From Arenibacter hampyeongensis (GTDB taxonomy: Bacteria > Bacteroidota > Bacteroidia > Flavobacteriales > Flavobacteriaceae): a stretch of 64,000 nt of DNA. Positions 42,478 through 47,463 of this stretch are shown piece by piece. The stretch's first letter is position 1. Each line of letters opens with the position of its first letter. A model generated the notes under the pieces. The model had not been told where the DNA came from and did not search any database. It worked only from the letters and a program-made list of their open reading frames with translations. A program made the position numbers and the translations under genes. The stretch covers positions 434,001-498,000 of the forward strand of contig NZ_PIOB01000002.1 in NCBI RefSeq assembly GCF_002909255.1, written 5' to 3'.

Positions 42478-42507
42478 AAAAGGAAACCTTTTACACGGTT
42501 TCCTTTT
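42478..42507. terminator. bidirectional intrinsic terminator
   Basis: AAAAGGAAACC (42478-42488) is complementary to GGTTTCCTTTT (42497-42507), with an 8-base loop. It sits between two convergent genes and its right arm reaches into the stop codon of the DUF922 gene. Confidence 0.7.
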
Positions 42508-43036
42508 AATTGTTTAATGCTTTCTTGATTTTTTTATTCCAAATTAATTGCTGAACCATATCCCTTGAAAAATTGGTTTCAGAATCGTATTTATTTTGAA
42601 AATCGTTTAAATCCTTGAGGATTTTTCTATAAATCTCCTTAACCTCGGATTTTGCATTTTTAGTGAATTTGGTCTTGGCCAATTCCTGTCTCATTTTACG
42701 GGCATAAACTTCAGTGATATCAAAATGCAATTGTTCGTGACCCAAAACTGTAGGGTTGGCAAGTTTAGGCTTATACCAGGATTTGTTGGGATAAAAATGA
42801 CAGCTTACCTTGAAATCGAGTTCCATTTTATCAGCGGTTCCCTGAGCAGAAAAATTGTAGGTTATTCCACTTGCAGTAATAGCAGCGGCATTGGAAATAT
42901 TGGAAGGCTTACCCTTGAAATCGGCCCAAGTCAATTTTTTCCCAGGGTGCCATTCAACAACCTCTTCCTCCTGACCAAAACCCAAATTGAGCACCAGGCA
43001 AACAATAATTAGAGCAATTGATTTTATAGTTCCCAA
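42506..43036 (-). CDS. exported DUF922 protein (putative zinc peptidase)
   Basis: A 176-residue protein with a signal peptide (LGTIKSIALIIVCLVLNLGF) followed by a DUF922 domain: EWHPGKKLTWADFKGKP near the start and an HExxHFD motif (LGHEQLHFDITEVYAR) in the middle. This motif would bind zinc and is typical of the family, whose peptidase activity is predicted but not shown. TTG at 43036 is chosen as start because the signal peptide begins there; a GTG at 43081 would overlap the upstream gene by 32 bases. It is last of the guaA-LysM-OsmC-like-DUF922 run. Confidence 0.78.
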   Translation of the reverse strand: MGTIKSIALIIVCLVLNLGFGQEEEVVEWHPGKKLTWADFKGKPSNISNAAAITASGITYNFSAQGTADKMELDFKVSCHFYPNKSWYKPKLANPTVLGHEQLHFDITEVYARKMRQELAKTKFTKNAKSEVKEIYRKILKDLNDFQNKYDSETNFSRDMVQQLIWNKKIKKALNN

Positions 43037-43049
43037 TTGAAAGTGATAT

Positions 43050-43427
43050 TTAGTTATAATGTACTGGATAGGTCCCAGCACTGTACTCCAATATTTCTTC
43101 CTTTTTATCCGGAATTTTATTGGTCACATTAAATTTAAAATCGACCCTGGTAATACGTCCGTATTCGGCTTCAATGCAATCTTTCACTCCAGGCCCGGAA
43201 TACTCAAAATCCCAATCCAGATTCTCGGCCTTTAGTCCCATAACGAAATTATTGGCCAAAGCTGTGGCAACTGTATCCGTTGAAGAAAATGCATGCCCCA
43301 ATCCATGGTTTTGCAATGGGGCAGCGGTAATATCTGAATTACCTGGAATTATGTTCACAGCTGCGCTTACAATCCTTCGGCATAGGTCACTTTCCAGATC
43401 ATCGTCATTATTCTTTAAGCTCCACAA
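43050..43427 (-). CDS. degenerate OsmC-like protein lacking both cysteines
   Basis: A 125-residue frame. The block ITAAPLQNHGLGHAFSSTDT followed by VATAL matches the OsmC/YhfA-type domain, and the end TYPVHYN matches the family end TCPVH. OsmC peroxidases need two cysteines: the first (normally a GSC after VATAL) is missing along with two residues, and the second is Tyr in TYPVH. In another reading frame the bases just after the LysM stop encode MTMIWKVTYAEGL, which looks like the normal OsmC N terminus and then hits a stop. A frameshifted, decaying gene is likely; a non-redox homologue with a TTG start at 43427 is the alternative. Confidence 0.6.
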   Translation of the reverse strand: MWSLKNNDDDLESDLCRRIVSAAVNIIPGNSDITAAPLQNHGLGHAFSSTDTVATALANNFVMGLKAENLDWDFEYSGPGVKDCIEAEYGRITRVDFKFNVTNKIPDKKEEILEYSAGTYPVHYN

Positions 43428-45573
43428 TCCTCATATTTTCATAGCCCAGTATATAGGAAGCCCTATTAAAATATCCTGATGAGATGTCCTTGTTAAAATT
43501 AAACTTGTTACCAATATATTCAGTTTCACCAATAAGTTTGGAGGCCACAACCAGGTCGTTTTTATATGCAAGTTTTAGAAGCATATCCAATGTTAGATCA
43601 AAACCACGAACTGCATATTCATCAGGATCCGAACCATATTTTGTTCTATACATTTTTAAGAAACCATTTCCTTCGGCCTCTTTTGAAGCGGAAGGATATG
43701 TAAACTTCAAATTGGAGAGGTGGGAATAAGAAACGGCTTCACTATCAAAAGCCTTGTTCTTGTCCGTTGTAAAAAGCCTAATACCAATTTCCTTGCTTAT
43801 CAAGGAATTCAACAATGATCCCACGTGATACACAACATTGGCCTGATCGGTTTCAAGAAACACCCAATTCTCAGTCTCCAATGACAATATCTTGGTAATT
43901 TTATCAATGTCCACCGTTCGATCTTCTTTTAAGGCCACTATTTTAGCCCCAGGAAATTTAAACATCAAAGCAGATTCCGTAGCCTTATTCTTTTGATCCG
44001 CAATTATAATAATATTTTCTTTGGTCCTTAAGCCCTCAACATAGGTCATCATATGCTCCTCCATAACTTTTTCAGAGGGAAGGGCGAAAAACACGTTGTT
44101 TAAACTTAAATCACTTTTTTCGGTCAGAGGGGCAACCACCGGAACTCCGTATTCCCCAGCCTGCAGTGCAACCTCTTTTAAAGATTGCGGCTCCAAGGGA
44201 CCAAAAATTGCCGAGACTCCAATCAGATTCTCCTTTTGTAATATTCCTTTGGTACGATTTATGTCCAATTGGGTATCATAGGTTTTCACATCTACGGAAA
44301 TCCCCAATTTGGCTATTGAATCCAGGGCCACCATTGCCCCGGAATATAGTCCCAAACTATATTTTACATCCTTTCTATTTTCTATGGCATTTTTGGTGGC
44401 AGCATTGTCCTTTAAATCCAGCCTATCCAGTCGGAAGGGCAAAAGAAATAGTACCCTGGGCCTGTTAAGTCTGTTTATGCTATCCACTAATCTTATCTTA
44501 TCTAAAATCAGGGCATTTTTCACATCAAAATTACCTGTCTGTGCCTTGGGCAATTTTAAGACCATTCCAGCCTTTAAACCGTCCTTTAACTCTGGATTAA
44601 GTTCCAATAATTCTTTATAAGTTACCCCAAATTTACGGGTAAGTGAAAACTCGGTCTGCTTAGGTTTCACCTCATAAAAATTGTAATTCTCAATATTGAC
44701 TTCCCCGCTCTCTACCTTTTGTACAGGTATCCTCAACACCATTCCTTCCTTTAGGCCACCCCTTTCCTTTATACCAGGATTCAAGGCTATAATTTCGCTG
44801 GAGGTTAATCCAAACTTTTTCTCCAAACTATAAAAAGTCTGTTTGGGGGGAACGGTATATGAATTGTACAACTGGGTTTCTTGATCTTTAAGGGAGCTGC
44901 CCAATGGCCTTGGCAATAACAACTCCTGACCAGAGGATAAATAGTCTGTTATTTTCGATAATTTGGGATTTAGAACCAATAAACTATCAATGGTAATCCC
45001 ATACTTATTGGCTATACTCCAACGAGTTTCCTTAGGTTGAACCGTGTAGATTTCATAATTACCCTCAATAAATGCCTTTTCGGCAGGATCCACCCTTTTA
45101 TATTTGGGAATCTTGAGAATCATTCCCTTTTTCAACTGAACCGAATACAACTCTCTATTGTAGCGTTTAATATCATCTTCCGAAATATTATACTGCTTGG
45201 AAATGCCAAACAGTGTTTCTTTTCTTTTGGTACGGTGAGAGATATAGCCAACTGGCTGCTGCTGTTGAAGACCGGCTTCATTTCCCTTTAATGCCTGCAA
45301 CAAGGCAGTTACTTCGGTTACACTATCTTTTTTTACCACAGTACCGTTTGCCGTGGGAATAACCAAAATAGTATTGGCCCTTAAAGCCTGACCCTTTTTT
45401 ATCTCCTTGTTATAATTTAATATCCCCTGCTCGGGTACATTATAACGTTTTGCTATACTTTCCAAAGTTTCGCCAGCTTTTACAGAATGGGTAGTGAATT
45501 TTTGTGCTATTGCGTTAATGCTCAACAACAATAAAAAAACCGTTGTAATAATTACTTTACTATATATTTTCAC
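43408..45573 (-). CDS. five-LysM protein with periplasmic binding protein type 1 domain
   Basis: A 721-residue exported protein. A signal peptide (IITTVFLLLLSINAIAQ) is followed by five LysM modules, each ending in a [V/K/R][I/L]P motif, at about residues 27-75, 108-155, 170-222, 235-285 and 297-345. From about residue 370 a periplasmic-binding-protein-like fold begins (RPRVLFLLPFRLD), as in the substrate-binding part of amino acid transporters or LppC/LpoA. The start is GTG. The architecture suggests a peptidoglycan-bound sensor or regulator of synthesis. It follows guaA by 123 bases on the same strand. Confidence 0.88.
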   Translation of the reverse strand: MKIYSKVIITTVFLLLLSINAIAQKFTTHSVKAGETLESIAKRYNVPEQGILNYNKEIKKGQALRANTILVIPTANGTVVKKDSVTEVTALLQALKGNEAGLQQQQPVGYISHRTKRKETLFGISKQYNISEDDIKRYNRELYSVQLKKGMILKIPKYKRVDPAEKAFIEGNYEIYTVQPKETRWSIANKYGITIDSLLVLNPKLSKITDYLSSGQELLLPRPLGSSLKDQETQLYNSYTVPPKQTFYSLEKKFGLTSSEIIALNPGIKERGGLKEGMVLRIPVQKVESGEVNIENYNFYEVKPKQTEFSLTRKFGVTYKELLELNPELKDGLKAGMVLKLPKAQTGNFDVKNALILDKIRLVDSINRLNRPRVLFLLPFRLDRLDLKDNAATKNAIENRKDVKYSLGLYSGAMVALDSIAKLGISVDVKTYDTQLDINRTKGILQKENLIGVSAIFGPLEPQSLKEVALQAGEYGVPVVAPLTEKSDLSLNNVFFALPSEKVMEEHMMTYVEGLRTKENIIIIADQKNKATESALMFKFPGAKIVALKEDRTVDIDKITKILSLETENWVFLETDQANVVYHVGSLLNSLISKEIGIRLFTTDKNKAFDSEAVSYSHLSNLKFTYPSASKEAEGNGFLKMYRTKYGSDPDEYAVRGFDLTLDMLLKLAYKNDLVVASKLIGETEYIGNKFNFNKDISSGYFNRASYILGYENMRIVELKE

Positions 45574-45696: not shown

Positions 45697-47229
45697 TTAT
45701 TCCCATTCAATCGTTGCAGGAGGTTTTGAACTAATATCGTATACTACCCTATTTACCCCTCTAACCTTATTTATAATGTCGTTGGAGGTTTTCTGCAAAA
45801 ACTCATAAGGTAAATTTACCCAATCCGCGGTCATCCCGTCCGTACTTTCAACTGCCCTTAAAGCTACACATTTTTCATAAGTCCTTTCATCGCCCATTAC
45901 ACCTACACTATTGACGGGCAAGAGCATTGCTCCCGCTTGCCATACCTTGTCATAAAGTCCCCATTCCTTTAATCCGTTAATAAAAATGGCATCTACCTCT
46001 TGAAGTATAGCCACTTTCTCACGAGTTATGTCACCTAAAATACGGATCGCCAACCCTGGTCCCGGAAAAGGATGCCTCCCCAATAATTCCTTATCAATGC
46101 CCAAGCTTGCACCAACCCGCCTTACTTCATCCTTGAACAACATTCGCAATGGTTCTACTACCTTCAACTTCATATAATCTGGCAATCCACCTACATTGTG
46201 ATGACTTTTAATAGTGGCAGATGGGCCTCCTGTGGCTGAAACGGATTCAATAACATCAGGATATATTGTACCCTGAGCCAGCCATTTTGCATCTTCCACC
46301 AAGTGCGATTCATCATCAAAGACCTCTATAAAAACCCTGCCAATGGCCTTTCTTTTCTTTTCGGGATCACTTTCTCCTTCCAAGTTATCCAAAAAGCGTG
46401 CCGAAGCGTCCACGCCCTTAACATTTAACCCCATACCTTCATATTGGTCCAATACCGATTGAAACTCATTTTTACGAAGCAGTCCGTTATTTACAAAAAT
46501 GCAATGCAAATGTTTCCCAATTGCTTTGTGTAGCAAAACTGCCGCAACGGTAGAATCTACTCCACCGGATAGGCCAAGAATTACCTTTTCATTACCAATT
46601 TCAGCCTTTAATTTGGCTACGGTAGTTTCCACAAACGAATCCGGGGTCCAAGTCTGCGCCACACCAGCTATATGTACCAAAAAGTTTTCCAATAACCTTT
46701 TCCCATCGGTGGTATGATACACCTCCGGGTGAAATTGAATGGCATAGGTCTCTTCGTCTTTTAACTTATAGGCCGCATTATCCACATCGTGGGTACTGGC
46801 CAATTTAATTGCTCCAGCTGGTAATTCCTTTATGGTATCACTATGGCTCATCCAAACCTGGCTACCTTCCGAAATTCCTTCAAAAAAGGATTCGGTGTGA
46901 TCAATAAAGGACAATTTAGCCCTCCCGTATTCACGGGTATCGGAAGGCGCTACCTTACCCCCATTAAAATGGGCCAAATACTGGGCACCGTAACAAACAG
47001 CCAACAAGGGCATTTTGCCTTTAATTTGTGATAGATCAGGATGGGGGGCATCATCGCCCCTTACAGAAAATGGTGACCCCGAAAGAATCACGGCTTTGTA
47101 TTCCGATACATTCTCGGGCAAATGGTTGTAAGGTTTTATTTCGCAGAAAATATTTAGTTCCCTGACCCTTCTAGCGATGAGCTGCGTATATTGGGAACCA
47201 AAATCTAATATGAGGACGTTATTTTGCAT
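45697..47229 (-). CDS. guaA: GMP synthase (glutamine-hydrolysing)
   Basis: Converts XMP to GMP with ATP and glutamine. The 510 residues start with the class I amidotransferase ([20 protein letters not shown]; nucleophile Cys in [16 protein letters not shown]; His-Glu in IQFHPEVYH). The ATP pyrophosphatase PP-loop [17 protein letters not shown] comes next, and a C-terminal dimerisation domain ends in PPATIEWE. The ATG at 47229 is taken rather than upstream codons because [11 protein letters not shown] is the family start. A TATTTTTG element ends only 3 bases before it. Confidence 0.97.
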
Positions 47230-47232
47230 GGG

Positions 47233-47240
47233 CAAAAATA
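47233..47240 (-). promoter_or_regulatory. guaA: -7 element directly before guaA
   Basis: TATTTTTG on the reverse strand ends 3 bases before the ATG, so transcription would begin at or within a few bases of the start codon. No TTG at 17-23 bases upstream was found. Confidence 0.4.
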
Positions 47241-47463
47241 GTAATTTGAAATTTTTGTAAAAGTATCTTTGAGGTATATTAATCACAAAACTTATAAACA
47301 GAATAAATTTGCACACCAATATTTGCCAAATAGGCCCTAAAATAATGGGATTCGTTCAGTTGATAGCAAATAGAATTATTCCGGATCGGGTTTTTAAAAT
47401 TGGAATTATAGAAGTTTAAAATATAGCTGGATGCCCATTCTTCCATCAATTTAAGACAAAAAT

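Follow-up and report, generated by a model that had tools for sequence, protein, structure and literature searches.

The OsmC-like locus in the window, a stretch of 64,000 nucleotides from Arenibacter hampyeongensis, is very probably a pseudogene, namely the relic of a dispensable two-cysteine gene of the OsmC family in a conserved gene array, with parallel losses of the same gene in Arenibacter. In this family, the two conserved cysteines have a catalytic role. The original prediction had noted an OsmC-like gene without these cysteines and with a broken N-terminus, and had proposed either a decaying gene inside a conserved operon or a repurposed, non-redox OsmC fold. The former is supported by the presence of both cysteines in 12 of 18 Arenibacter genomes, by lesions that are specific to lineages, by an omega that is not different from 1 and by the constraint on the adjoining LysM gene. 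In the portions of the literature covered by a search, no account of this OsmC locus in Arenibacter was found.

The array begins with a gene at 45697-47319 on the minus strand, which we take to be guaA, and continues with the LysM gene, the OsmC-like stretch and the DUF922 gene. Its features, and those of the relic, are:

43408 to 45573, minus strand: LysM-repeat gene upstream of the relic, intact and constrained (Pfam; match in 18 of 18 genus genomes; omega 0.064 on the window branch)
43024 to 43402, minus strand: OsmC pseudogene, the entire stretch homologous to the 134-codon orthologue (alignment with 15 other genus slots; profile E 1.1e-28)
43050 to 43427, minus strand: open reading frame of the original prediction, the main frame of the relic (list of open reading frames and alignment)
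43367 to 43408, minus strand: displaced N-terminal fragment, MTMIWKVTYAEGL followed by a stop, the ATG of which overlaps the LysM stop
43353 to 43375, minus strand: frame break, where codon 12 is an in-frame TAA and where, by codon 15, the length has changed by 1 nt (alignment, read directly)
43242 to 43256, minus strand: loss of 6 nt where the orthologue has its first conserved cysteine, C52 (alignment)
43068 to 43070, minus strand: Tyr codon replacing the second cysteine, C114 (alignment)
43050 to 43053, minus strand: junction of a 19-nt deletion (about 43052/43051), by which the SLHPDIV region was lost and the TAA that ends the open reading frame was created (alignment)
42506 to 43036, minus strand: DUF922 gene with an HEQLH motif, which was read directly (Pfam PF06037; alignment of 13 genomes)

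The LysM gene has 10 named relatives at 85-92% identity, all of them in Arenibacter, and the 11th locus, in an Algibacter MAG, has 33%. For the DUF922 gene, its own relatives indicate a start at the TTG at 43036, 13 nt past the stop of the relic, and this position reads ATG, GTG or TTG among them. The longest DUF922 open reading frame, 42506-43081, opens at a GTG at 43081, and it is the alignment that puts the start at 43036.

The predicted open reading frame of 125 amino acids is present and opens at a TTG within the LysM gene. Its match to OsmC, its shortened first cysteine region and the Tyr at the second cysteine all hold up against 12 intact orthologues, in the alignment of which the likeness extends from about codon 20 (PGNSDITAAPLQNHG...STDTVATALA) to TYPVHYN at codon 119. 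A profile built from intact genes matches the relic at positions 15-119 with an E-value of 1.1e-28. The likeness is far beyond chance, and the slot is syntenic across the genus. The first approximately 20 codons of the open reading frame do not align with OsmC, the C-terminal codons of the orthologue are absent from it, and the in-frame starts near its 5' end, which were read directly, are the TTG inside the LysM gene or a later GTG. Comparison of the open reading frame with Pfam and NCBIfam yielded no family, and no Pfam family was matched even at E <= 0.1.

The expected N-terminus is indeed encoded in a different frame by the LysM stop, at 43408-43367, and its ATG forms a TAATG with that stop. 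The frame break itself had been placed at 43385-43395, and the alignment moves it to about 43375-43353; its exact place is ambiguous, and the longest single-base run there is two. At C52, the window copy is two codons shorter than the orthologues (NNF--VMG versus SCMFSVMG), leaving N or a gap at the cysteine, and C114 is Tyr (codon 43070-43068), while Cys occupies both sites in 11 of 11 intact congeners. The lesions given in the original prediction are thus real, but the 19-nt deletion at the 3' end had not been listed; the disruptions of the frame in the window comprise a stop at codon 12 and losses of 1, 6 and 19 nt. Eighty residues are invariant in the 11 intact genes, and the window copy has changed 26 of them and lost 8 (seven gapped, one a stop); when each intact gene was left out in turn, 0-6 of the invariant residues were changed. 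The window copy therefore shows one mark of a pseudogene, namely lesions that disrupt it in comparison with the intact orthologues of this slot.

These lesions are known from the assembly of one strain, and the N-terminal frame break, taken alone, could be a sequencing or assembly error in a gene that is in truth intact. Such an error would, however, have to explain why the length has changed three times, why a stop lies in frame and why 26 of the residues invariant in 11 intact genes are substituted, and there is no base run longer than two at the break. Moreover, the LysM gene can be aligned over its whole length, free of stops, with the LysM genes of the genus, and the OsmC gene is broken in other ways in other genus genomes. 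In view of the number and spread of the lesions and the different decay in congeners, the error that had been envisaged alongside the original prediction is extremely improbable.

The genus sample consisted of 18 Arenibacter genomes, including that of the window (G000), and in all of them the slot is marked by the LysM gene, with syntenic surroundings. The alignment of orthologues between the LysM and DUF922 genes, which had been suggested as a check, revealed intact, relaxed, broken and absent states. An intact OsmC gene of 134 codons with Cys at positions 52 and 114 is present in 11 genomes. One genome, A. troitsensis (G013), has a full-length gene with both cysteines in which 12 of the 80 otherwise invariant residues are changed. 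The gene is broken in four genomes, namely the window genome, A. arenosicollis (G003), Arenibacter sp. F26102 (G009) and Arenibacter sp. ARW7G5Y1 (G006). The remaining two, G008 and G012, lack any OsmC match genome-wide at E <= 0.01 and any DUF922 match in the 15.5 kb fetched; a DUF922 match was likewise not found within the fetched stretch in G001, G010 and G015, in which OsmC is intact.

The other three relics are broken in different ways. In A. arenosicollis, the gene is interrupted by stops at codons 10, 37, 40 and 131 and has lost 1 nt; in F26102, it has a single stop at codon 131 and no indel, with both cysteines gone; and in ARW7G5Y1, two in-frame deletions have removed 138 and 27 nt (46 and 9 codons), with the frame still open. 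In three of the four relics (window, F26102 and ARW7G5Y1), C114 has become Tyr, and since this change takes one transition, the shared Tyr may be due to chance. In a species tree of eight neighbouring genes, which was built from stretches found by tblastn and not from whole annotated genes, the window genome groups with A. arenosicollis and F26102 (97%), and the sister of this clade is A. catalasegens (G005; 100%), with an intact gene. A. troitsensis stands beside A. palladensis (G014; 100%), which is also intact, and ARW7G5Y1 falls elsewhere. This placement implies at least three separate lapses in the genus, in addition to the absence in G008 and G012. A first lesion shared by the whole clade of the window genome, A. 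arenosicollis and F26102 was considered and set aside: in a comparison that excluded ARW7G5Y1, the clade has three private shared bases, versus 16 common to A. arenosicollis and F26102 alone, so that a shared loss is unproven.

The branch codon model gave a background omega for OsmC of 0.049. On the window branch, omega is 0.683, which is not different from 1 (p = 0.28) and is different from the background (p = 1.2e-15), in agreement with decay in the dN/dS check that had been proposed. The values are 0.697 for A. arenosicollis and F26102 with their stem (p = 0.13 versus 1, p = 2.4e-29 versus the background), 0.724 for ARW7G5Y1 (p = 0.41 and p = 6.1e-13, respectively) and 1.14 for A. troitsensis (p = 0.82 and p = 1.9e-11, respectively). 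The intact sisters have omega values of 0.049 (A. catalasegens) and 0.03 (A. palladensis), and the sister lineage of the decayed clade thus retains an intact, strongly constrained copy. Purifying selection is not detectable on the window lineage, which is a further mark of a pseudogene; when the decayed branches and A. troitsensis were pooled, omega was 0.73 and borderline versus 1 (p = 0.05), as would be expected if some time before the loss, probably under constraint, is averaged into each branch. On the same branches, omega is 0.03-0.08 for the LysM controls (0.064 on the window branch) and 0.15-0.22 for DUF922 (background 0.15), so that OsmC alone is relaxed among the three genes tested.

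It should be noted that these tests were run on one fixed tree, in which some nodes are weak (33, 56 and 65%), with a custom codon-likelihood script and chi-square p-values, and that gap and stop codons were counted as missing (11 of 134 in the window, 5 in A. arenosicollis, 1 in F26102 and 57 in ARW7G5Y1). The neutral-scale length of the window branch is 1.23 for OsmC, 1.13 for LysM and 0.53 for DUF922, and that of the A. catalasegens branch is 2.92 for OsmC and 1.31 for LysM; the fits behind these lengths, and behind the omega values of LysM and DUF922, ended at the iteration limit. Segment values, with intervals that are too narrow because branch lengths were fixed, are 0.44 for window codons 22-60 and 0.48 for codons 1-21 of A. 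arenosicollis and F26102. These segment values count against decay, as do an in-frame run of 102 codons in the window that is free of stops, where about 2.2 stops were expected (P of none about 0.10), and the point estimates of omega in the broken lineages, which are all below 1. With an omega of about 1.1 and its 12 changed invariant residues, the OsmC gene of A. troitsensis apparently shows the same decay in an early phase.

The possibility that the open reading frame at 43050-43427 makes a functional, non-redox protein with the OsmC fold, for which the cysteines are no longer needed, has to be weighed against the same data. The 125 codons are open, codons 22-60 are fairly conserved (the omega of 0.44 at fixed branch lengths), and Tyr recurs at C114 in three relics. 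Nevertheless, omega in the window is not different from 1, and the four relics have no common architecture, as frame break, stops and deletions of 46 and 9 codons are distributed among them. Such a protein would, in addition, carry an unaligned stretch of about 20 codons at its beginning, lack the C-terminal codons and have to start near the 5' end at the TTG in LysM or the later GTG. An AlphaFold2 model from a shallow alignment also predicts no confident fold: the mean pLDDT is 42 and the pTM 0.28 (8 alignment rows), compared with a pLDDT of 64 and a pTM of 0.62 for the intact A. catalasegens orthologue as a control (7 rows). As both alignments are shallow, this contrast is weak, though it points in the same direction as decay. 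With no significant purifying selection on the cysteine-less copies branch by branch, and a borderline result for the pool, the repurposed fold that had been proposed is very unlikely.

Decay of a gene is the reading that is followed here. The window relic is syntenic with a flavobacterial subfamily of OsmC (PF02566) with 134 amino acids, and is homologous to it over approximately codons 15-119; unlike the family, it has lost both cysteines, the in-frame N-terminus, the C-terminal codons, the Pfam match and significant constraint. The two intact orthologues that were tested reach 48.8 and 48.1 bits with PF02566 (cut-off 27.5), and are far below the cut-offs of the curated Ohr and OsmC subfamilies of NCBIfam. 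The only solved relative of the intact profile at E <= 0.001 is 2pn2_A, an uncharacterized protein (E 1.7e-52). The designation "peroxidase" would be carried over to this subfamily from the family.

The window genome contains four other OsmC-domain genes above the Pfam cut-off. At E <= 0.01, the relic is the sole match of the subfamily profile in this genome, and compensation by a relocated intact copy was consequently rejected. Second profile matches in 5 of the 18 genus genomes are weak (E 1.2e-6 to 9.4e-5) and fall within longer frames that belong to other types of OsmC. A gained paralogue was also considered as the source of compensation: an OsmC gene of 162-164 codons occurs in the window genome, A. 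arenosicollis and F26102 and is unlisted for the intact sister A. catalasegens, but similar genes are present in the intact A. palladensis (165 codons) and G015 (163 codons), and none is listed for ARW7G5Y1 and A. troitsensis. This distribution, judged by frame length only, does not reveal a consistent pattern of compensation.

Recurrent parallel gene loss is a feature of ordinary bacterial pseudogenes inside operons. The window locus resembles these in its lineage-specific indels and stops, its omega near 1, its intact neighbours and the recurrent loss in sister lineages, and nothing decisive sets it apart, apart perhaps from the fact that the 3' end of OsmC overlaps the inferred start of the next gene in the relatives. 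One may envisage that the OsmC protein became dispensable, with four other OsmC-domain genes remaining in the window genome, and that the genus saw at least three independent lapses of selection. The relic would then survive because too little time has passed since the loss; in addition, deletion of the 3' end might be disfavoured, given that the last OsmC codons overlap the inferred DUF922 start in relatives.

Loss of the gene extends beyond the genus. The subfamily profile has matches at E <= 1e-5 in at least 155 of 299 sampled genomes of the family, some of which resemble other OsmC types. LysM-type loci were sought in 20 match-less genomes among those listed, and the downstream DNA was inspected at 14 loci, with six genomes with weaker matches left out; at none of the 14 was OsmC found (E <= 0.01). 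DUF922 lies downstream at 10 of these 14 OsmC-less loci, close behind LysM in nine and after an intervening gene in one. G072 shows an almost clean excision of OsmC: the inferred DUF922 start follows the LysM stop after only about 30 nt, and by eye this remnant resembles the first OsmC codons. The OsmC-less loci across the family indicate that loss of the middle gene is not rare and is tolerated.

A further explanation would be that the dead OsmC gene is kept as a translated leader, the stop-free frame of which delivers terminating ribosomes that reinitiate on DUF922. According to Huber et al. 2023 (PMC10666635), translational coupling needs genes that overlap or lie very close together, for two gene pairs the final 15 nt of the upstream gene were enough, and 14-nt gaps led to coupling of 60% and under 20% in two pairs. 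At the level of the genes, the array resembles termination-reinitiation systems in that OsmC overlaps the inferred DUF922 start in intact relatives and in that two relics have a TAGTG, but differs from coupling at overlapping genes in that the window has a 13-nt gap and no overlap. The overlap in the relatives measures 13 nt in all eight intact congeners with an adjacent DUF922 gene, in A. troitsensis and, outside the genus, in G018 and G035. Seven of the eight intact congeners have TTG or GTG as the inferred DUF922 start. Among the relics, the stop forms TAGTG with this inferred start in A. arenosicollis and F26102, and ARW7G5Y1 keeps the overlap.

The absence of stops also speaks for such a leader. 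The relics of the window, F26102 and ARW7G5Y1 have none in 102, 130 and 77 codons, respectively, for which 2.2, 2.8 and 2.0 were expected (joint probability about 0.001), and when A. arenosicollis was added, the count was 4 versus an expectation of 10.4 (post hoc, p about 0.02). A. troitsensis (0.7 expected, none seen) was left out of the count. These expectations come from a neutral simulation with neutral lengths of the analyst's choice, namely 0.82, 0.86 and 0.94, which were discounted for the time before the loss, and 0.96 for A. arenosicollis. However, the stretches were picked after looking, and the stop of F26102 at codon 131 falls outside the counted stretch. A neutral length of 0.6 raises the probability of no stop to 0.18, 0.12 and 0.24, and DUF922 gives a shorter window branch, of 0.53. 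Furthermore, stops are present at codons 10, 37 and 40 in A. arenosicollis, the relic frame in the window has no clear start and terminates 13 nt before the DUF922 start, and the start codons were assigned by alignment only. DUF922 is still present in G072, in which OsmC is reduced to the remnant of about 30 nt, and 10 of the 14 inspected OsmC-less loci retain it downstream of LysM. The long open frames of three of the four relics, which end at or just before the DUF922 start, thus hint at a possible leader for translational coupling, but A. arenosicollis, G072 and the OsmC-less loci argue that any need for one is not strong, and on balance we consider the leader unlikely. If it were true, a pseudogene would outlive its protein function as an element that regulates translation.

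With decay as the preferred reading, the tempting case of a "cysteine-less OsmC" is settled as gene decay, and what the genus offers is a small natural series of one gene in one slot that is intact, relaxed, broken or gone. This series could be used in studies of how an overlapping array loses a middle gene without harm to the next one. A second OsmC paralogue is possibly decaying as well, as another OsmC-domain match, at G008:C49:69561-69830, contains an in-frame TAG and an open frame of 100 codons.
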